Shown here: positions 2,587 to 13,219 of the stretch, piece after piece
Layout of the letters: each line of letters starts with the position of its first letter
Numbering within the stretch: position 1 is the stretch's first letter
DNA from: Clostridia bacterium
GTDB lineage: Bacteria; Bacillota; Clostridia; Oscillospirales; CAG-272
Length of the DNA: 64,000 nucleotides
Direction of reading: 5' to 3'
Assembly (NCBI GenBank): GCA_017520505.1
Contig: JAFXFN010000034.1
Span: 1-64,000 of the forward strand
Notes under the pieces: model-generated
What the model was told of the DNA's origin: nothing
What the model saw: only the letters and a program-made list of their open reading frames with translations
The model's database searches: none
Translations under genes and position numbers: made by a program

Positions 2587-4377
2587 TTATTTTGTAGGTT
2601 CAAAGTCAGCGGCACCGTGCTTACAAAGCGGACACACGAAATCATCGGGAAGTGTGTCACCCTCGTAAACGTAACCGCAGATCTTACATACATATCCTTT
2701 TTTACCCTCTGTCTTGGGCTTGGGCTTTACGTTGTTCTGATAATACGTGTATGTCATCGTTTCTCTGTCGGATATTACTCTTGATTCGACAACTGAGCAG
2801 ATAAACATACCGTGTGTATCAAGGTCGATATACTGCTCGACTTTAAGTGACATAAACGCATTGATATATCTCGGCAACACGACAAGACCGTTGTCGGAGC
2901 GAAGCGGCTCGCAGTTTGCAAATTTGTCAACGTTTCTTCCGCTTTGGAAGCCAAACGTTTCAAACACCTTGAACGGTGCGTCAACTGACAGACAGTTTAT
3001 ATTCATAACACCCGTCTGCATAATTACGTGGTGCGAATAATTTTCTTTATTTATCGTAACGGCGATACGGTTAGGCGTATTCGTAACCTGCGTTACGGTA
3101 TTAACGATAAGTCCGTTATCCTTTTTGCCGTCGTTTGACGTAACGACGTAAAGACCGTATCCGATATTGAAAAGCGCCGACGGATCGTTTTTATCGGTTC
3201 TGTCACCGGAAAGTGCAGAATATTCACGGCAAAGCTCATTTGCCATATCGTCAAGCTGTTTTTTGCTTTCGTCATTCAGACTTGAAACTATCTTGACCGT
3301 CGTATCGGTATACGTCAGATTCTTGCTGTTTTCAAGCATTTTCTTCATAACCTTGGCGGCAAGCGGTGCCCAGCTTCCGTTTTCGATAAACGCAACCGTT
3401 CTGTTCTGGAAATTTCTCTCGGTAAGGTGAGTGATAAACTCACGCATAAACGGGAATATTTCAGCGTTGTACGTCGTCGTGGCAAGCACGAGCTTGCTGT
3501 ATTTAAAAGCATCGGCAACAGCCGCTGACATATCGCATCTTGCAAGGTCATAAATGACCGTTTTGGGGCATCCGAGCGAATTGAGCTTGTCTGCAAGCTG
3601 CATTACGGCTTTTTTGGTATTTCCGTAGACGGAGGTATACGCAATTACGATTCCCTCCTCCTCAGCCTGATAGCTTGACCATGTACTGTAAAGGTCAATA
3701 TATTTTCCGAGGTTTTCTTTCAAAACCGGGCCGTGCAAAGGGCATATCATCTGAATATCAAGTCCTGATGCCTTTTTCAAAAGTGCTGTGACCTGTGCGC
3801 CGTACTTTCCGACGATGCCGATATAGTAACGTCTTGCCTCGTCCTCCCACGCCTCTTTTGCATCAAGCGCCCCGAACTTTCCAAATCCGTCAGCGGAAAA
3901 CAGCACCTTATCGTAAGAATCGTACGTTACGATGACCTCGGGCCAATGTACCATAGGAGCTGTGAAGAACGTGAGCGTGTGCTTGCCGAGGCAAAGCGTG
4001 TCACCCTCGCCGACGACCATACGGCGATCTGCAAAATCCGTACCGAAAAAGCCCTTCATCATTGTAAATGCCTTTGCCGATGAAACGACAACGGCATCGG
4101 GATATGCTTTTGTAAAGTTTATTATATTTGCCGAATGGTCAGGCTCCATATGCTGAACGATAAGAAAATCGGGAGTTCTGTCACCTAAAGCATTCTGAAT
4201 ATTATCAAGCCATTCGTGTGTATAAGCGGCATCGACCGTATCCATTACGGCTGTCACATCATCAAGTATAACGTAAGAATTATACGATATACCCGACGGT
4301 ATTTTATACTGACCTTCAAAAAGGTCTGTTTTTTTGTCGTTAACGCCGACATATTTTATATCATTTGTGATTATCAT
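2587..4377 (-). CDS. Flavodiiron protein with flavin-reductase and rubredoxin domains
   Basis: A 596-residue cytosolic oxygen (or NO) reductase that shields anaerobes. Domain order: metallo-beta-lactamase-like diiron domain (about 1-250) with the complete ligand set His76-x-Glu78-x-Asp80-His81, His144, Asp163 and His215; flavodoxin domain (about 255-395, starting IVIAYTSVYGNTKKA); flavin-reductase-like FMN domain (about 405-540); rubredoxin (about 550-596, GYVCKICGYVYEG and FVCPLCKHG). The last two domains would let it take electrons without a separate reductase chain. ATG at 4377 follows GAGG by 8 bases; a TTG 15 bases upstream is in frame but lacks a ribosome site. It leads the operon, with rubredoxin and superoxide reductase downstream. 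Confidence 0.95.
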   Translation of the reverse strand: MIITNDIKYVGVNDKKTDLFEGQYKIPSGISYNSYVILDDVTAVMDTVDAAYTHEWLDNIQNALGDRTPDFLIVQHMEPDHSANIINFTKAYPDAVVVSSAKAFTMMKGFFGTDFADRRMVVGEGDTLCLGKHTLTFFTAPMVHWPEVIVTYDSYDKVLFSADGFGKFGALDAKEAWEDEARRYYIGIVGKYGAQVTALLKKASGLDIQMICPLHGPVLKENLGKYIDLYSTWSSYQAEEEGIVIAYTSVYGNTKKAVMQLADKLNSLGCPKTVIYDLARCDMSAAVADAFKYSKLVLATTTYNAEIFPFMREFITHLTERNFQNRTVAFIENGSWAPLAAKVMKKMLENSKNLTYTDTTVKIVSSLNDESKKQLDDMANELCREYSALSGDRTDKNDPSALFNIGYGLYVVTSNDGKKDNGLIVNTVTQVTNTPNRIAVTINKENYSHHVIMQTGVMNINCLSVDAPFKVFETFGFQSGRNVDKFANCEPLRSDNGLVVLPRYINAFMSLKVEQYIDLDTHGMFICSVVESRVISDRETMTYTYYQNNVKPKPKTEGKKGYVCKICGYVYEGDTLPDDFVCPLCKHGAADFEPTK

Positions 4378-4417
4378 AAATAGACCTCGCAAGTGTTTCC
4401 TTTATTTTTCCCGAAAA

Positions 4418-6146: not shown

Positions 6147-8900
6147 TTACGGCGCTTTATGCTCTTTAAGCACCGTAGTTTTATCGTAGAATGTCCAGTT
6201 ATCCTTCTCCCACAAATTGTCCTTGACGCTTGCCCAGCGTGAAGGCAAAAATGTGTTGCCGTTGTTTTTGCTCGTGGAGAATGTGTCGGATACGATGATA
6301 AACTGCTCGTGAGCTGTTTTTTCGTCACTCGTTATTTTGTTACCCGTAAACGGATTCACGGGGTTTTCGATAAGTCCGTTCATCGCAATTACAGGCACGT
6401 CGGCATTCGTCATAAATTCCTCCGACACGGTAAACTCACGGCTGTTAAAGTCCTTTACCATAAACAAGGGATAGTAAAATTCAGCATCTATTTCACCCTT
6501 CTGAAGCTCTTTTATCTGTTTTAAATTTCGTCCGTGGTCTGCAACGATGATGATTTTTGTGTTATCGTACACGCCCTCTGCCTTCAAATGGTCAAGCCAC
6601 GTGCCAAGACGGAGCATTGATGCCATATTGATATGGTAATGGCTCATTTCAAACGTGCTGTCAACCGTCATTTTAACACCGTCAACATTGAATCTGTCCT
6701 TGTGGGCTTCATCGTATTCGGTATTATCGACGTTCATTGACGGAACGTAATCGGGCGTCTGAAGAAGTGCGGGCTCGTGTGTGGAATCGTTTGTCATAAA
6801 CAAGAACGTGTTTTTCTCCTCATCCGTGACATTCGTCATTCCTATCATATTTTCAAGCACCTCGTACGACTGCATAAACGGTGCGTAAAGTCCCTCTGCC
6901 GTTGACATATCGTGTATGGTCTGGCTGGTGGTATTTCCCTGCTCAAAATCAGCCTCAACCTGATTGTAAAGTCCGTCACCGTATACAGACGGCTGGAAGA
7001 ACAAGGGCATACACTTCATAAAGCTAAGACAGAAGAAATTTCTGTGATTGTTTTCTATGACCTTTTCCTTTTGCGAAAGCTCGCCGAATCTGCCCTTTGT
7101 GATGTAAGCATCAATGTCGGTATACTCCTCAAACACGGTAAGGTCGGGAATCCACTTATAGTTTGCATAAACAGGGTCAAATACCGTTACGTCGTAGCCG
7201 TTTTGGTCAAACAGCACGGGCATAACCTTCAAAGCCTCGTTGTGCTTTGAAACGAGGGATTCTTTATCACGTTTATTAAGCTCAACGGGGGTATACTCAT
7301 ATCCGCCGAGCAATGCGGGGGAGGCGAAATTCGTATAGCCGCCGAACGAGATCGTGTTTTTGTAGTACGTGAAGCCTGCAAACATCTCACGAAGCTCGGG
7401 CTTTTCGTTGAACATATAAGGCACATACTGTCCCATTGAACGGTCAAGCATAATTACAATTACGTTTTTGCCGTTTTTGGAAAGCGTGAAATCGGGGATA
7501 GAATCATTGTCAGCCGACACTTCATTTACAGAGGTGTTTATTGCCGAAACATTCACCGCCGACATACCACCGACAGCAATAATGGCTGTTAAAAGCACGC
7601 TTGACGTTATGCGCTTGAATTTGATACAGCAGAAAATGAGAAGTGCGCAAAGCGCAATTATTATAAGCACGTTTATCCACTGCTCAAGGATGCCGAAGCT
7701 GACACCGTTTTCGTACTGGAGCGTGGGGGAGATAACACCGAGGTCGGTACCGAAGAACATATAGTTTACGACCGTGACACCCGAAAGCACCCACATAAGT
7801 CTTTCAAATACTACCTTTCCTTTGGGGCTTGCAAGCCAATAGAACACTCCGAACCAAACGAGGAAGAAGCCGCCTGCCATACAAGCAGTACGCAAAACGT
7901 ACCAAAGAGGATTATGAAAATACGTAGCGTCGATATATTCCTGCGCTGAGGATGAAATGAACGCAGACGGTATAAGCACACCCAGAAGCACCGTCAGAAA
8001 CACACCGCCGAGGATAAATGAAAGTCGGTTAGGTGTATACTGCTTTTCCCCCGGCTTGATGCTTACGTTCTTCTTTATAACGTGGATCAAAAGCGGAAGC
8101 TGTAACAAAAATGCAAGCGCAAGAAGTGCATTTTTAAGCTCTGTTTTTGCTTCGGTTGACGTAAAGAATGCATAAAGGCATACGATTCCGACAACGGAAA
8201 GGCCGATGCGCAAAACCTTTTGAGGATTTTTTATCTTGTAGAAGATATTTTTGACAAGCGAGAAAAGGTTGTTGAGCGTCCAATAAAATACGAGACACGC
8301 AGGCGATGTGTAAAGGAACACAAGGAAAAATGCCGCCATTGCGTAAAGCTGTATTTTCGTTTTAAGCGGAAAGCCTTTTAAATAAATTGCGCTTGAAATG
8401 ACGTTTATCAGCGTCATAAGCACAGGAAGGACGTTTATTGCAAGTCCGCCTATAACGAGCATACCGTCAGGTGCGCCGAGGTCCTTTATAGGGCCGAATG
8501 AAACACCCTGAAGCACCGTGAGTCCCGACAAGAACTGATATGCAGCCATAAAAAACGGAATTTCAAGCAAAAGCGACACGGAGCCGTTGAGGGCATTCGT
8601 CGGCTTGTAGTTATTCTGTCTGTAATACGTCTGCAGCATCATCATTCTCTCATCACCCGAGAACGTTTTTTTGATGTGCGCAACACCCTTTGCAAGCTTT
8701 GCTTCGATGTCACGTGAACGCTCCTGCATTTCGTCAGCACGTCTGTAAAGAGGCAGGACGAGAATGTTCATCATAAGGCTCAAAAATATTATGGCAATAC
8801 CGGGGTTGCCGATAATATTGTTGGCATTTCTGAAAATTATTTCAAATATCAGCTTCAGCGGGCCTAAAAACACCGTTTCGATAATTGACCAGAACGACAT
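6147..8900 (-). CDS. YidC/Oxa1-like membrane domain fused to an LtaS/sulfatase-like phosphotransferase domain
   Basis: 917 residues. Residues ~1-225 follow the YidC/Oxa1 core: NPGIAIIFLSLMMNILVLPL, a charged helical hairpin (RRADEMQERSRDIEAKLAKG), a cytosolic YRQNNYKP stretch and LLEIPFFMAAYQFLSG. The position of the conserved groove arginine (usually ..IR/VR LL.LPL) is Asn45. Residues ~226-460 add further membrane segments. From ~475 an alkaline-phosphatase-superfamily domain begins (GKNVIVIMLDRS): Asp486, likely nucleophile Thr523 in GYTNFASP, His708 in STHEP, Asp788-His789 in VADHG, a complete metal/catalytic set comparable to LtaS and phosphoethanolamine transferases. The catalytic part should be outside the cell. 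Its start overlaps the stop of the TagF-like gene (TAATG), so the two are translationally coupled. A role in transferring glycerol-phosphate or a phospho-substituent to a surface polymer is inferred. Confidence 0.88.
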   Translation of the reverse strand: MSFWSIIETVFLGPLKLIFEIIFRNANNIIGNPGIAIIFLSLMMNILVLPLYRRADEMQERSRDIEAKLAKGVAHIKKTFSGDERMMMLQTYYRQNNYKPTNALNGSVSLLLEIPFFMAAYQFLSGLTVLQGVSFGPIKDLGAPDGMLVIGGLAINVLPVLMTLINVISSAIYLKGFPLKTKIQLYAMAAFFLVFLYTSPACLVFYWTLNNLFSLVKNIFYKIKNPQKVLRIGLSVVGIVCLYAFFTSTEAKTELKNALLALAFLLQLPLLIHVIKKNVSIKPGEKQYTPNRLSFILGGVFLTVLLGVLIPSAFISSSAQEYIDATYFHNPLWYVLRTACMAGGFFLVWFGVFYWLASPKGKVVFERLMWVLSGVTVVNYMFFGTDLGVISPTLQYENGVSFGILEQWINVLIIIALCALLIFCCIKFKRITSSVLLTAIIAVGGMSAVNVSAINTSVNEVSADNDSIPDFTLSKNGKNVIVIMLDRSMGQYVPYMFNEKPELREMFAGFTYYKNTISFGGYTNFASPALLGGYEYTPVELNKRDKESLVSKHNEALKVMPVLFDQNGYDVTVFDPVYANYKWIPDLTVFEEYTDIDAYITKGRFGELSQKEKVIENNHRNFFCLSFMKCMPLFFQPSVYGDGLYNQVEADFEQGNTTSQTIHDMSTAEGLYAPFMQSYEVLENMIGMTNVTDEEKNTFLFMTNDSTHEPALLQTPDYVPSMNVDNTEYDEAHKDRFNVDGVKMTVDSTFEMSHYHINMASMLRLGTWLDHLKAEGVYDNTKIIIVADHGRNLKQIKELQKGEIDAEFYYPLFMVKDFNSREFTVSEEFMTNADVPVIAMNGLIENPVNPFTGNKITSDEKTAHEQFIIVSDTFSTSKNNGNTFLPSRWASVKDNLWEKDNWTFYDKTTVLKEHKAP

Positions 8901-10141
8901 TATTTCTCCTCCTCCTTCGTTGTAAGCTCATTCAGCTTTTGTTCTATGTAATCGGCTGTGCGAACGGCACCTTCACCGAAATGCTCCCACGTTTCAGCCT
9001 TTACCTGCCGTCTTCCCTCTGCATATTTGGGGTCTTCAAGGCAAGCGTCTATCACGTTTTTAAGGTCGCCCATATTTTCGTCAGTCAGTCTTTGACCGAT
9101 TCTCGGAAGTGCCGACGCCGTCCAAAGCGGCTTATCAAGCCACCACGCATCGTACGGACTCAGATCGAAATCGGGGTCGGTGTATATAACGGGCTTATCG
9201 TATACGAGCGTAAAGTCAAATATAACACCCGAAAAGTCGGAAATAAGTATATCGGAGCGTGAAAGCACGTTAAAGTTATCCGTATCCTTGTTCCACTGCA
9301 ATCTGTCGCTTTCGGGATACTCTGCCATCAGCTTATCGAGCATTTCCTTTTCCGAGGTGAACGACTGCGGGTGGGGACGGACTATGACGTTATAGCCCGT
9401 ATTCAAAAGCACGTCGAGTATTTTTCCGCCGTACACGCTCAAAATGGCGCTTTTGCCCCAGGAGGGCGCAAGAAGCACGGTGCGTTTTTCGTCCTTACGC
9501 TCAGCGCTTCCCTCTTTTTGCAGTCTTTTTGCCATTTCGTCCATATAGGGGATTCCAACCTTTACAAGCTCCTTTTCGGGAAGCTCTCTCAGCTTTTCAA
9601 GCGCACGGACGTCCTCTGCCTGATATTCACCCGACAGAAGAACTGCGTCGTAATAGTCTATGCCGAACATTCTGTAAAGTGTTATTTCACTTGCCGCATG
9701 CGGAATATGAACGTAAAAATCTGCAAGCTTTGATTTTTTCCACTGATACACCTCAAGACCGGGAGTTGTGGAAAGAACTATCGAAGCGTTCAAAAAATTA
9801 AGCTTCATAAACGCACGGCTTTCCTTGCCTATAAATTCAGCCTTTACGTGCTCAAATTTGCTTTCAAGCGCCTTGTCATCGTCAGACATCGTCATATATA
9901 CGGTGTCAATACCGCGTTCATCAAGCTCACGGCATATAGGCTCAAATATAGACCAGTACCTTTTGTTGTCAGAAAATATGACAACAGGTATCTTGTTCAT
10001 ATCCGTCTTTGCGCTTCCTCCGCCGAGGCGGAAACGAAACTTGATAAAAAACATTCTCAAAGAAAAGATACTTGCGCCTATAACGCCTATAAGTATCGTA
10101 AAAAGCATACTCCCCGTGCCGGGGTCAATATACAGCAGCAT
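8900..10141 (-). CDS. TagB/TagF-like CDP-glycerol glycerophosphotransferase
   Basis: A 413-residue protein with one N-terminal membrane segment (LLYIDPGTGSMLFTILIG...) and a GT-B-like catalytic part. The hallmarks are HIPHAASEITLYRMFG, VIVRPHPQS and SDILISDFSGVIFDF, which carry the conserved His and the Ser/Asp motif of the teichoic-acid glycerophosphotransferase family (Glyphos_transf). It should transfer glycerol-phosphate from CDP-glycerol to a membrane-linked acceptor or chain. ATG at 10141 follows GGAGATAATT; a TTG further upstream is in frame but lacks a ribosome site. It is coupled to the YidC-sulfatase fusion by a 1-base stop/start overlap and lies downstream of licCAB on the same strand. 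Confidence 0.9.
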   Translation of the reverse strand: MLLYIDPGTGSMLFTILIGVIGASIFSLRMFFIKFRFRLGGGSAKTDMNKIPVVIFSDNKRYWSIFEPICRELDERGIDTVYMTMSDDDKALESKFEHVKAEFIGKESRAFMKLNFLNASIVLSTTPGLEVYQWKKSKLADFYVHIPHAASEITLYRMFGIDYYDAVLLSGEYQAEDVRALEKLRELPEKELVKVGIPYMDEMAKRLQKEGSAERKDEKRTVLLAPSWGKSAILSVYGGKILDVLLNTGYNVIVRPHPQSFTSEKEMLDKLMAEYPESDRLQWNKDTDNFNVLSRSDILISDFSGVIFDFTLVYDKPVIYTDPDFDLSPYDAWWLDKPLWTASALPRIGQRLTDENMGDLKNVIDACLEDPKYAEGRRQVKAETWEHFGEGAVRTADYIEQKLNELTTKEEEK

Positions 10142-10422: not shown

Positions 10423-11373
10423 TTATTCGCCTTTTTTGAATATTTCCTTGAAGTCGGCGGCGGCAAATATACCGCAGACGAGAACGACGACGGTACAGAT
10501 TATCTGAAGAGCGCTGAATGTCGGCATCGCACCGCCGAAAATAACGAGCGCAAGCGGAATAACCGCTATCCACGCACAGTACGTTACGTTAAGTGCCATA
10601 GCCTTCGATGCGCCAATCTGCGAAATCGCCTTGTAGTAGTAAAGATATGAAAGCGTTGCGAAAAGTCCTGCAATAACTATCGTGGGGATAAGCCACTTTG
10701 TGTCGGGTGTGAAAAGATTTGCCGTAAAGCCCCAGCCCTTGATAACGGGGAGAATAATGACGGCATAAGTAAGCGCCGACGTTGTCTGACGTATCTGCAA
10801 GGCGTATTCGTCCTTGACCTCGGGGTCTGTAAGGCACTTTGCAAGAATGACCGCCTCAATGCCCCAGCCGAATGCACACATAGCCGCACCGACGATACCG
10901 AGGGCGAAGTTCTGTATATCAAGCTCGGGTGAGTAGCTGAGACCGTAAACGCCGAGAAGTGTGAATATAAGGAACACCCACTGATACCATTTCATCTTTT
11001 CTTTAAGGAAGATGTAAGCAAGTATTGCGCCTATTGCGGGGAACACAGCACTTGCAACAGCACCGACCGATGCGCCCATATAAGTAAGCGCCATAACGTA
11101 GCCCGTCATACCGACAGGGCCGCCGATAACTGCGGCAACGACTACCCATTTACCGCTTTTCGTCTTCGTAAGGGCGTTCCATACGTTTTTGAGATTTCCT
11201 CTGACACCGTTGTACGCTGTCGCCCAAACGGCTGAGGAAGCATCGTGAATGAATGTGCTGATGAACGTAACGAATAAAAGCGATTCTGCCGAAAACGCTT
11301 CCATTCCCGTTGCGAGTGTAAGAATGTATGATGCGATCGCCCAAGTAATTCCTGCGATAATTCCTGCTGTCAT
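10423..11373 (-). CDS. licB: Choline permease, EamA/DMT superfamily (LicB-like)
   Basis: A 316-residue integral membrane protein with about ten hydrophobic helices in two EamA-like halves, e.g. GGPVGMTGYVMALTYMGASV and LFATLSYLYYYKAISQIGASK. Alone this would be only a drug/metabolite-type transporter, but its immediate coupling to a choline-kinase-like and a LicC-like gene points to LicB, which imports choline for phosphocholine surface decoration. Its ATG overlaps the licA stop by one base (TAATG) and GGAGGAAACAA serves as ribosome site. Substrate is inferred from neighbours. Confidence 0.85.
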   Translation of the reverse strand: MTAGIIAGITWAIASYILTLATGMEAFSAESLLFVTFISTFIHDASSAVWATAYNGVRGNLKNVWNALTKTKSGKWVVVAAVIGGPVGMTGYVMALTYMGASVGAVASAVFPAIGAILAYIFLKEKMKWYQWVFLIFTLLGVYGLSYSPELDIQNFALGIVGAAMCAFGWGIEAVILAKCLTDPEVKDEYALQIRQTTSALTYAVIILPVIKGWGFTANLFTPDTKWLIPTIVIAGLFATLSYLYYYKAISQIGASKAMALNVTYCAWIAVIPLALVIFGGAMPTFSALQIICTVVVLVCGIFAAADFKEIFKKGE

Positions 11374-12272
11374 TATTTGTTTCCTCCCTTGATACTCATA
11401 TATTCTTTTATGAAGCCTTTAAGACGTGTATATCTTTCCGTTGCCCAGTCCTCCATAGGCTGTCCGTCATAAGGAACTCTCGTTTTTGCCCACAGAGTCC
11501 ACAGATAGTCAACGTAAATTTTGCTTGCCAAAAAGTGCTTTTTGTCCTTTTCGTCGGGTGTGTGTCCGAGATATGCTGTCAAAAGCTTTTCGTCGCACTC
11601 GCCGTCGAAGCCTGCTTCAATGGAAACGTCGGCAACGTCCCACATACCGTCGTTCATTCCTGCATATTCCCAGTCGATAAGGTACATTCTGTCAGCACCG
11701 AGCACCCAGTTTTCGCAAAGCGGGTCATTGTGGCACGGCACCTTTTCAGCGCAAATAAGCGCATCAATTTCCGTTTTCACGTCCATAACGTGATTTTTCA
11801 TCTCATCATAATCGTCATACATCACCACTTTTTTGTCGGCAATTATCTTTTCGTATCCGCTTGCCATTTCAAACACCTCAAACGGTACGCCCGTGTTGAC
11901 ACCCGACGTATGCACCTTTTTGAAGATGTCTGCCATACGCTTTATGTTTTCATCATTTTTAAGCGTTTCACTTGACATTGTAACGGCATCCTTTATGTAT
12001 CTCGTCACCTTTGAGCCGTCGTCACCGAAGTAAAGAAGCTCTGCATCAACACCGAGGTCACACGCAAGGCGTGTGCTTACCATTTCGTCACGGCGGTTTA
12101 TAAGCTCCTCCGTTCCCTCTCCGGGAATACGCACGACGTAGTCCTCACCGTCTACGGTCACCTTATACGTGCGATTCGTAAGTCCACCCATACGGGAAAT
12201 TGCGCTGTAATCATCGGTTTTGAGTACCTTTTGAAGCAGTTGCTTCACGGCTGAGTATTCTGTTTTTTCCAC
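11373..12272 (-). CDS. licA: Choline kinase (LicA-like)
   Basis: A 299-residue cytosolic kinase expected to make phosphocholine from choline and ATP. It has the aminoglycoside/choline kinase motifs: GGLTNRTYKV near the N-terminus, VPCHNDPLCENWVL (Brenner motif HxDxxxxN) and LIDWEYAGMNDGMWDVAD (choline kinase motif). Start choice: a TTG at 12278 overlaps the licC stop but sits only 2-3 bases from the GGAG, whereas GTG at 12272 lies 8 bases from it, so I prefer GTG. It is translationally linked to licC upstream and licB downstream. Ethanolamine is a possible alternative substrate. Confidence 0.9.
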   Translation of the reverse strand: MEKTEYSAVKQLLQKVLKTDDYSAISRMGGLTNRTYKVTVDGEDYVVRIPGEGTEELINRRDEMVSTRLACDLGVDAELLYFGDDGSKVTRYIKDAVTMSSETLKNDENIKRMADIFKKVHTSGVNTGVPFEVFEMASGYEKIIADKKVVMYDDYDEMKNHVMDVKTEIDALICAEKVPCHNDPLCENWVLGADRMYLIDWEYAGMNDGMWDVADVSIEAGFDGECDEKLLTAYLGHTPDEKDKKHFLASKIYVDYLWTLWAKTRVPYDGQPMEDWATERYTRLKGFIKEYMSIKGGNK

Positions 12273-12274
12273 TT

Positions 12275-13144
12275 TCAAATCTCCTTTAATATTTTTTCGC
12301 TGTATGAGTATTTATATTTTTTGTCTTTGCAAACGAACGTAAAGCCGCCTGCGGCATTTGTGCCGTCCTTATATGATAAGACGGATTTTATATCACTTTC
12401 GTTACAGTCAAGCGATGAACAAATGCTTTTTAAAATATTCGAGCGTGTGTCGTTTACATAGCTTTCGTCAAATTCACGAAGCTCGTCAAGCGTGTCAAAC
12501 TCAAAAATAACGCCGTCCTTGTACTTTCTTATCTTCATTTCAAGGCTGTCAATGTTATTTATATAAATGCTCTCCCACAAAAGGTCGGCAGTTTCGGGCT
12601 TGTCGTAATCAGAGCGCAAAATCTCAAGAAATTTCTTTGTAAAATCCTCACACCAGAACACGTGGCCGAGCATATACCAGGCGTTCTCACCGCCTATTTT
12701 AACATTTCGAATGGTGCCGTTTTCATCATACTCCATACACCATTCCTTTGTTGCCCCGTCTGCGTAGAGTGCCGAATAATAGCAATCCGACACTTCCTTT
12801 TCAAACGGATTTTCGGAAAAATAATTATCCGCTGAGCAAATATATGAGTTTTTAAGTATACCCTTAACGGCGTAAATGCTTGCGTTGTTGTTTCTCGTCA
12901 GAAAGTCGGGATTATGCACGAGCTTAACGGAAAATTTTTCTTCAAGATACGAAAACATCTCCGCCTTGTAGCCTGTAACGACGTATATTTCATCAATGCC
13001 CGCTTCCTTAAGCTGGCGTATCTGACGTTCTATAAGCACCTCACCCTTGACGGTGATAAGCGCCTTGGGCATTTCGTACGAAAGCGGTGCAAAACGGCTT
13101 GAAGTTCCTGCCGCCATAATTACCGCGTTATCAACAATATGCAT
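12275..13144 (-). CDS. licC: CTP:phosphocholine cytidylyltransferase (LicC-like) with C-terminal extension
   Basis: A 289-residue nucleotidyltransferase. The N-terminal signature AVIMAAGTSSRFAPLSYEMPKALI is that of sugar-1-phosphate/phosphocholine nucleotidyltransferases. ICSADNYF supplies the metal-binding Asp, and the short Rossmann-like core matches LicC, which makes CDP-choline. The last ~60 residues (from about 228, NDTRSNILKSICSSLDCNES) extend beyond the usual ~230-residue LicC and have no function I recognise. First gene of the licCAB operon; GGGGACAAAAA precedes the ATG. Confidence 0.87.
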   Translation of the reverse strand: MHIVDNAVIMAAGTSSRFAPLSYEMPKALITVKGEVLIERQIRQLKEAGIDEIYVVTGYKAEMFSYLEEKFSVKLVHNPDFLTRNNNASIYAVKGILKNSYICSADNYFSENPFEKEVSDCYYSALYADGATKEWCMEYDENGTIRNVKIGGENAWYMLGHVFWCEDFTKKFLEILRSDYDKPETADLLWESIYINNIDSLEMKIRKYKDGVIFEFDTLDELREFDESYVNDTRSNILKSICSSLDCNESDIKSVLSYKDGTNAAGGFTFVCKDKKYKYSYSEKILKEI

Positions 13145-13190: not shown

Positions 13191-13219
13191 ATTATAGCAC
13201 TAACTATTTACGTTGTCAA
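13191..13219 (-). promoter_or_regulatory. Consensus sigma-A promoter of licCAB
   Basis: Minus strand TTGACA (13214-13219), 17-base spacer, TATAAT (13191-13196): a perfect match at both hexamers, about 47 bases before the licC start. Strong constitutive expression is expected unless a repressor acts; no operator is evident. Confidence 0.85.

Follow-up and report, generated by a model that had tools for sequence, protein, structure and literature searches.

A YidC-like domain fused to an LtaS/EptA-like membrane enzyme beside a TagF-like gene and choline-activation genes in Clostridia: a candidate head-group relay

The locus described here lies in a window of 64,000 nt (the whole stretch of DNA that was analyzed) from a Clostridia bacterium. 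Its central gene occupies 6147-8900 on the minus strand, where the frame is open; the plus strand has 20 stop codons over the same interval. The gene order is licC-licA-licB upstream of a tagF-like gene and the central fusion gene, all in the same direction. The features are as follows.

6147-8900, minus strand: yidC-ltaS fusion gene, 917 aa, ATG start (open reading frame, Pfam, AlphaFold2)
8226-8900, minus strand: YidC/Oxa1-like domain, residues 1-225 (60KD_IMP; match to YidC 3wo7)
8766-8768, minus strand: codon of Asn45, at the conserved YidC groove Arg/Lys position (alignments)
8061-8225, minus strand: two linker transmembrane (TM) helices, residues 226-280 (AlphaFold2 helices; positive-inside loops)
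7521-8033, minus strand: five-TM domain of the LtaS/PbgA type, residues 290-460 (AlphaFold2 helices; PbgA 6xlp)
6150-7478, minus strand: extracytoplasmic domain of the alkaline-phosphatase superfamily, residues 475-917 (Pfam, conservation, structure matches)
8900-10141, minus strand: TagF-like CDP-alcohol transferase (Glyphos_transf), ATG at 10141, overlapping the fusion gene by 1 nt
10100-10132, minus strand: YIDPGTGSMLF motif, N-terminal membrane anchor of the TagF-like protein (conservation)
10423-11373, minus strand: licB-like choline permease, EamA fold (Pfam E-value 3.3e-16; gene order)
11373-12278, minus strand: licA-like choline kinase (Pfam Choline_kinase E-value 2e-21)
12275-13144, minus strand: licC-like nucleotidyltransferase, i.e., phosphocholine cytidylyltransferase (Pfam NTP_transf_3 E-value 3.7e-13)
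13191-13219, minus strand: promoter-like site upstream of licC, sigma-70-like 12/12 with TG before the -10 (consensus match only)

A strong terminator-like hairpin spans 13275-13249, and the promoter-like site at 13219-13191 lies just downstream of it. Elsewhere in the window, two other minus-strand genes encode fused proteins: 1778-2455 (225 aa) joins desulfoferrodoxin (N and C domains) to a BFD-like [2Fe-2S] domain, and 2587-4392 (601 aa) joins a flavodiiron-type protein to flavin reductase and rubredoxin-like domains.

Judged from the DNA sequence, a transcription unit likely starts at licC. The gap of 281 nt between licB and the tagF-like gene holds inverted repeats, so that a single transcript for the lic genes, tagF and the fusion is no more than a possibility, which counts against the relay proposed below.

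An earlier note on this DNA had described a single 917-residue frame that joins a YidC-like core to a phosphotransferase-type domain, and the open reading frame, the Pfam matches, and the AlphaFold2 model all agree with that description. The model (85-sequence alignment) has a pLDDT of 89.9 and a pTM of 0.84, and its TM layout is 5 (YidC) + 2 (linker) + 5, with the linker helices at residues 226-247 and 253-278. Since positive charges fall in the predicted inside loops, the catalytic domain of the fusion is predicted to face outside. Structure prediction had been suggested in the same note as a check, and AlphaFold2 with Foldseek matches the N-terminus to YidC and the C-terminal part to LtaS/EptA relatives.

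Residues 34-221 match Pfam 60KD_IMP (E-value 1.5e-21), and the model matches Bacillus halodurans YidC (3wo7) in Foldseek with a TM-score of 0.70 over the target and an rmsd of 3.6, which bears out the YidC fold assigned to residues ~1-225. Against the NCBIfam domain TIGR03592, the fusion scores 78.7 bits, below the 84.3 cut-off. A YidC core is strongly conserved in the fusion family (P50, Y52, P115, P159, P200, Y206-W207, and N210). Asn45 aligns with the groove arginine of the E. coli and B. halodurans proteins, as had been read from the sequence; these arginines are R366 and R72, respectively. The groove position is Asn, Ser or Thr in all 29 window-type sequences and never Arg or Lys, is Lys or Arg in 21/21 solitary YidCs compared, and is lysine in the swapped arrangement described below. 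An ordinary yidC is also present in the genome of the window, flanked by genes resembling rnpA and jag, and more than one YidC-family match was found in 33 of 35 carrier genomes.

The Pfam Sulfatase domain covers residues 478-835 of the fusion (E-value 1.2e-5, just above the cut-off). The complete active site that had been proposed (Asp486, Thr523, His708, and Asp788-His789) is upheld by conservation, as the first three residues are present in 95/95 relatives and the Asp-His pair in 94, the remaining one having a gap. These residues are taken here to be the equivalents of the LtaS threonine nucleophile and its Asp/His metal ligands. Foldseek matches of the C-terminal part include LtaP, MCR-1, PbgA, EptA, and LtaS; PbgA (6xlp) aligns over model residues 286-909 with a Z-score of 19.7 and an rmsd of 14.9 over two domains (VIA-align). 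In the model, five TM helices within about residues 292-459 precede the catalytic domain, and with these helices of its own the C-terminal part is more than a catalytic domain alone. Residues of about 286-917 are, in the model, a complete five-TM LtaS/EptA/PbgA-like enzyme with a predicted transferase role. An LtaS model was absent among the NCBIfam matches of the fusion, and the likeness to LtaS is a structural match. The same genome encodes a separate LtaS-like protein of 663 aa. Another sulfatase-family match in this genome (L083) was considered as a transferase and rejected, as it reads like a phosphopentomutase.

The TagF-like protein matches Glyphos_transf with an E-value of 4.9e-14 (52.5 bits against a cut-off of 22.1), and its score against the TarF equivalog is 15.3 bits, far below the cut-off of 550. 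Across 65 TagF-like sequences, the RPHP and SDFSG motifs are conserved, and YIDPGTGSMLF, which stands ahead of a hydrophobic stretch, is at least 95% conserved.

A genome survey, which had likewise been proposed in the earlier note, recovered the same fusion at 78 loci when genomes of 84,980 species were scanned. The carriers belong to Clostridia, Treponema, and other groups and include a cultured species, Mediterraneibacter agrestimuris (L013); the lowest identity among the relatives is 34%, in Treponema. At 62 of the 78 loci, the fusion has a TagF-like gene no more than 300 nt away, and in most cases the two overlap or touch. Because these loci are in separate genomes, an assembly artefact was rejected. 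Within the family of the window the fusion occurs in 9/78 genomes, each time as one match spanning both halves, and in a sample across the class in 12/391; the fusion is an accessory trait. Some genomes carry two to four tandem copies, and at L060 (7983-16350) and L062 (2715-13511) three and four tandem fusion genes, respectively, adjoin one TagF-like gene. Three split fusion genes were seen. In two of them (L025 and L053), the frames overlap in the late part of the catalytic domain. In the third (L072:2772-5473), a frameshift at eight consecutive C breaks the gene, due to either sequencing error or phase variation, and on account of this C run the case was rejected as evidence of a natural gene split. 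In Neisseria, a G tract makes pptA phase-variable (PMC10434233). At six loci (L042, L044, L051, L055, L056, and L064), the pair occupies a fixed site upstream of uvrB-uvrA-like genes and downstream of ftsE-ftsX-like genes and an M23-type peptidase gene.

A swapped arrangement, with the TagF-like enzyme as the fusion partner of YidC, was found in seven genomes: four (L085, L086, L087, and L088, with open reading frames of 634-719 aa) through YidC-family matches in carrier genomes and three (L134, L135, and L136) through a class-wide search. In five of these seven genomes, a membrane sulfatase/LtaS-like protein is encoded by a gene of its own, either next to YidC-TagF or within one small cluster with it; Sulfatase is above the cut-off in four of these, with L088 at 20.1 against 25 bits. 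At L136, a sulfatase-type gene with a sub-threshold match is about 2 kb away, and no sulfatase/LtaS-like gene was recognized near YidC-TagF at L135. There, YidC-TagF is followed by genes for phosphonopyruvate decarboxylase, a nucleotidyltransferase, and PEP mutase with a cytidylyltransferase domain. At L087 it is followed by a LicB that is 63% identical to that of the window. The AlphaFold2 model of the L087 protein (7 sequences, pLDDT 85.9) matches TagF with a Z-score of 21.5 and YidC with a Z-score of 18.7 (rmsd 2.8). Since YidC is found fused to either partner, the YidC, TagF-like, and LtaS-like domains are very likely parts of one process, and little doubt attaches to their acting in one pathway.

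As to common ancestry of the two YidC fusions, the YidC-domain tree sets the window type apart from the swapped type and the solitary YidCs (support 100, branch length 2.38). This split would fit two separate recruitments of YidC, a reading weakened by the long branch. An apparent TagF-YidC-LtaS triple fusion (L047) was rejected, its N-terminal extension being an out-of-frame translation over the upstream gene. Around the swapped loci, a YIDP-type membrane segment was seen as a separate 113-aa gene (L085:2063-2404) or as the first part of the sulfatase gene (L134:3781-6051), and this segment is possibly a fourth module. Three swapped loci have small genes nearby whose sequences read as signal peptidase I (L085:2424-2927, L086:4997-5482, and L134:3252-3713).

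Head-group genes accompany part of the 78 loci: lic-type genes alone at 31, PEP mutase alone at 2, both at 1, and at 7 a gene that joins a nucleotidyltransferase to a CobD/HisC-like aminotransferase. At L073, PEP mutase with a cytidylyltransferase domain, phosphonopyruvate decarboxylase, and a fusion of nucleotidyltransferase and AEP transaminase are all encoded between the TagF-like gene and the yidC-ltaS fusion. The transporters vary between loci (LicB-type, BCCT, and SSF). The type of head-group gene follows the tree of the fusion protein, with 6 changes on it against a shuffled mean of 10.2 (0/300 shuffles were as low). In the family of the window, LicB is present in 5/9 fusion-positive against 2/69 fusion-negative genomes (p 1e-4, relatedness ignored). 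Taken together with the genomic context, transfer of a phospho(no)-amine to the surface is a well-supported and probable role for the system. Counting against a head-group relay, 37 of the 78 loci have no recognized head-group genes within the fetched flank, and LicB is absent from 4/9 fusion-positive family genomes.

LicD (PF04991) was not found in the 96%-complete genome of the window, in which the control was detected, and it was absent from 13 of the 22 lic-type carrier genomes searched, an absence that is soft since most of these carriers are metagenome assemblies. These absences agree with the TagF-like and YidC-LtaS proteins replacing LicD. LicD-family genes are present in the other 9 carrier genomes, which counts against such replacement. 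A search for choline-binding repeats in the genome of the window returned no match, but neither did its control, and the result carries no weight.

These data suggest a two-step head-group relay in which the fusion would be the membrane and outer-face half, a reading for which the arguments are about evenly balanced. LicB, LicA, and LicC would import choline and make CDP-choline; at other loci, CMP-aminoethylphosphonate or the product of the nucleotidyltransferase-CobD-like enzyme would take its place. The membrane-anchored TagF-like enzyme would then use CDP-choline to place phosphocholine on a membrane lipid at the inner face, the YidC-derived domain could act as a dedicated lipid scramblase in which the charged head group crosses through the hydrophilic groove, and the LtaS/EptA-like domain would take the group onto Thr523 and pass it to a surface glycan or protein, replacing LicD. 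The observations comprise the domain composition and how well it is conserved, the topology as predicted, the pairing with the TagF-like gene, the domain swap, and the presence of head-group genes; the lipid nature of the TagF-like product, scrambling by the YidC domain, and the final acceptor are inferred. Known LtaS/EptA-like relatives draw head groups from membrane lipids. With a CDP-alcohol transferase inside and a second transferase outside, a carrier across the membrane is needed, and the YidC fold is the one domain common to both fusions. A lipid intermediate is accordingly favored to some degree, and a scramblase role for the YidC domain has about an equal chance of being right or wrong. 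E. coli YidC scrambles lipids when reconstituted in liposomes (PMC10491306); as scrambling is reported to be general for insertases, it need not be the selected function of the YidC domain of the fusion. Neisseria PptA puts phosphocholine on pilin, and phosphatidylcholine has been discussed as its possible donor (PMC10434233). The earlier suggestion of a membrane platform or substrate channel therefore pointed in the right direction; the TagF-like partner had been overlooked, and with that partner and the head-group pathway, an LtaS-type polymerase working by itself does not fit.

Other readings of the same genes are less probable. The TagF-like enzyme could resemble LicD or TarF and add phosphocholine to a polyprenyl-linked glycan on the inside, with the fusion flipping and/or transferring that glycan or a further cap. 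TagF/TarL relatives do work on lipid-linked glycans, and the swapped fusion matches TagF in its TagF half (the Z-score given above); yet the pair has no constant set of flippase or polymerase genes at its side, and since one pair occurs with choline, phosphonate, or CobD-like genes, a head-group carrier is a better fit than a fixed glycan, so that this is an unlikely account. The YidC domain as a mere membrane anchor or assembly hub for the two enzymes, the lipid crossing otherwise, is somewhat less likely again: fusion of YidC to either partner and the loss of the groove Arg/Lys in the window arrangement would suit it, but the YidC core is strongly conserved for an anchor and the LtaS-like part has five TM helices of its own.

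That same loss of the groove arginine weighs against a proposal in which the YidC domain presents membrane proteins or lipoproteins, to which the LtaS-like domain adds phosphocholine in the manner of PptA. The pilin precedent (PMC10434233) and the long helices that the AlphaFold2 model retains where YidC has its cytoplasmic hairpin speak for protein targets, but Lic-1 genes pair with carbohydrate targets in surveyed species (PMC10434233), and the proposal is improbable. Least credible, and very improbable, is a lipoteichoic-acid polymerase (an LtaS variant) that neighbors unrelated decoration genes of the lic type. LtaP and LtaS are among its best Foldseek matches; however, the genome has its separate LtaS-like protein, NCBIfam returned no LtaS model, and the partners across loci are choline, phosphonate, and CobD-like genes.

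In the open literature, outside which most subscription journals lie, no description of a YidC-sulfatase/LtaS architecture or of its function was found, nor anything relevant on YidC with TagF or on CDP-choline with glycerophosphotransferases. Each part of the system belongs to a known family. A 2023 survey found no evidence for Lic-1 and PptA enzymes coexisting in one species (PMC10434233), and the locus in the window joins lic genes with an enzyme of the PptA superfamily, i.e., two phosphocholine routes. If the relay is true, insertase lipid scrambling, known in vitro (PMC10491306), would have a dedicated biological role, activated aminoethylphosphonate would have a named candidate for its final transferase, and the pathway would be directly testable in gut commensals and treponemes. 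A broader proposal, that a YidC/Oxa1-family domain became a dedicated scramblase in two fusions and serves a general, LicD-bypassing lipid relay for phosphocholine, aminoethylphosphonate, and related groups, is offered tentatively, with the balance slightly against it.

Several known systems share components with this locus. The fusion has the fold, the 60KD_IMP domain, and the core motifs of YidC/Oxa1 insertases such as those of B. halodurans (3wo7) and E. coli; in contrast to them, it has Asn/Ser/Thr for the groove Arg/Lys, carries an attached enzyme, and lies at a locus other than rnpA-yidC-jag. With EptA/PptA/MCR-1 and LtaS/LtaP/PbgA it shares five TM helices and an extracytoplasmic domain with the conserved threonine and metal ligands, and PptA, which moves phosphocholine, is of the same superfamily; here, however, the enzyme sits behind a YidC domain, pairs with a TagF-like enzyme, and is only distant in sequence. 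The TagF-like partner has the Glyphos_transf domain and RPHP motif of TagF/TarF/TarL, and in the swapped fusion the TagF half folds like TagF (3l7i), whereas the partner in the window begins with a YIDPGTGS membrane anchor and elsewhere the TagF-like enzyme is fused to YidC. Genes for nucleotide-activated aminoethylphosphonate, as in the PntC phosphonate pathway (PMC6697681), also occur in some fusion loci; the paper on that pathway mentions LicD-like phosphotransferases nearby, whereas the final transferases at the fusion loci appear to be the TagF-like/YidC-LtaS set. Finally, the window shares LicA, LicB, and LicC homologues for CDP-choline with the Lic-1 pathway (LicABCD), but in place of LicD, which was not found, it has the TagF-like enzyme and YidC-LtaS.
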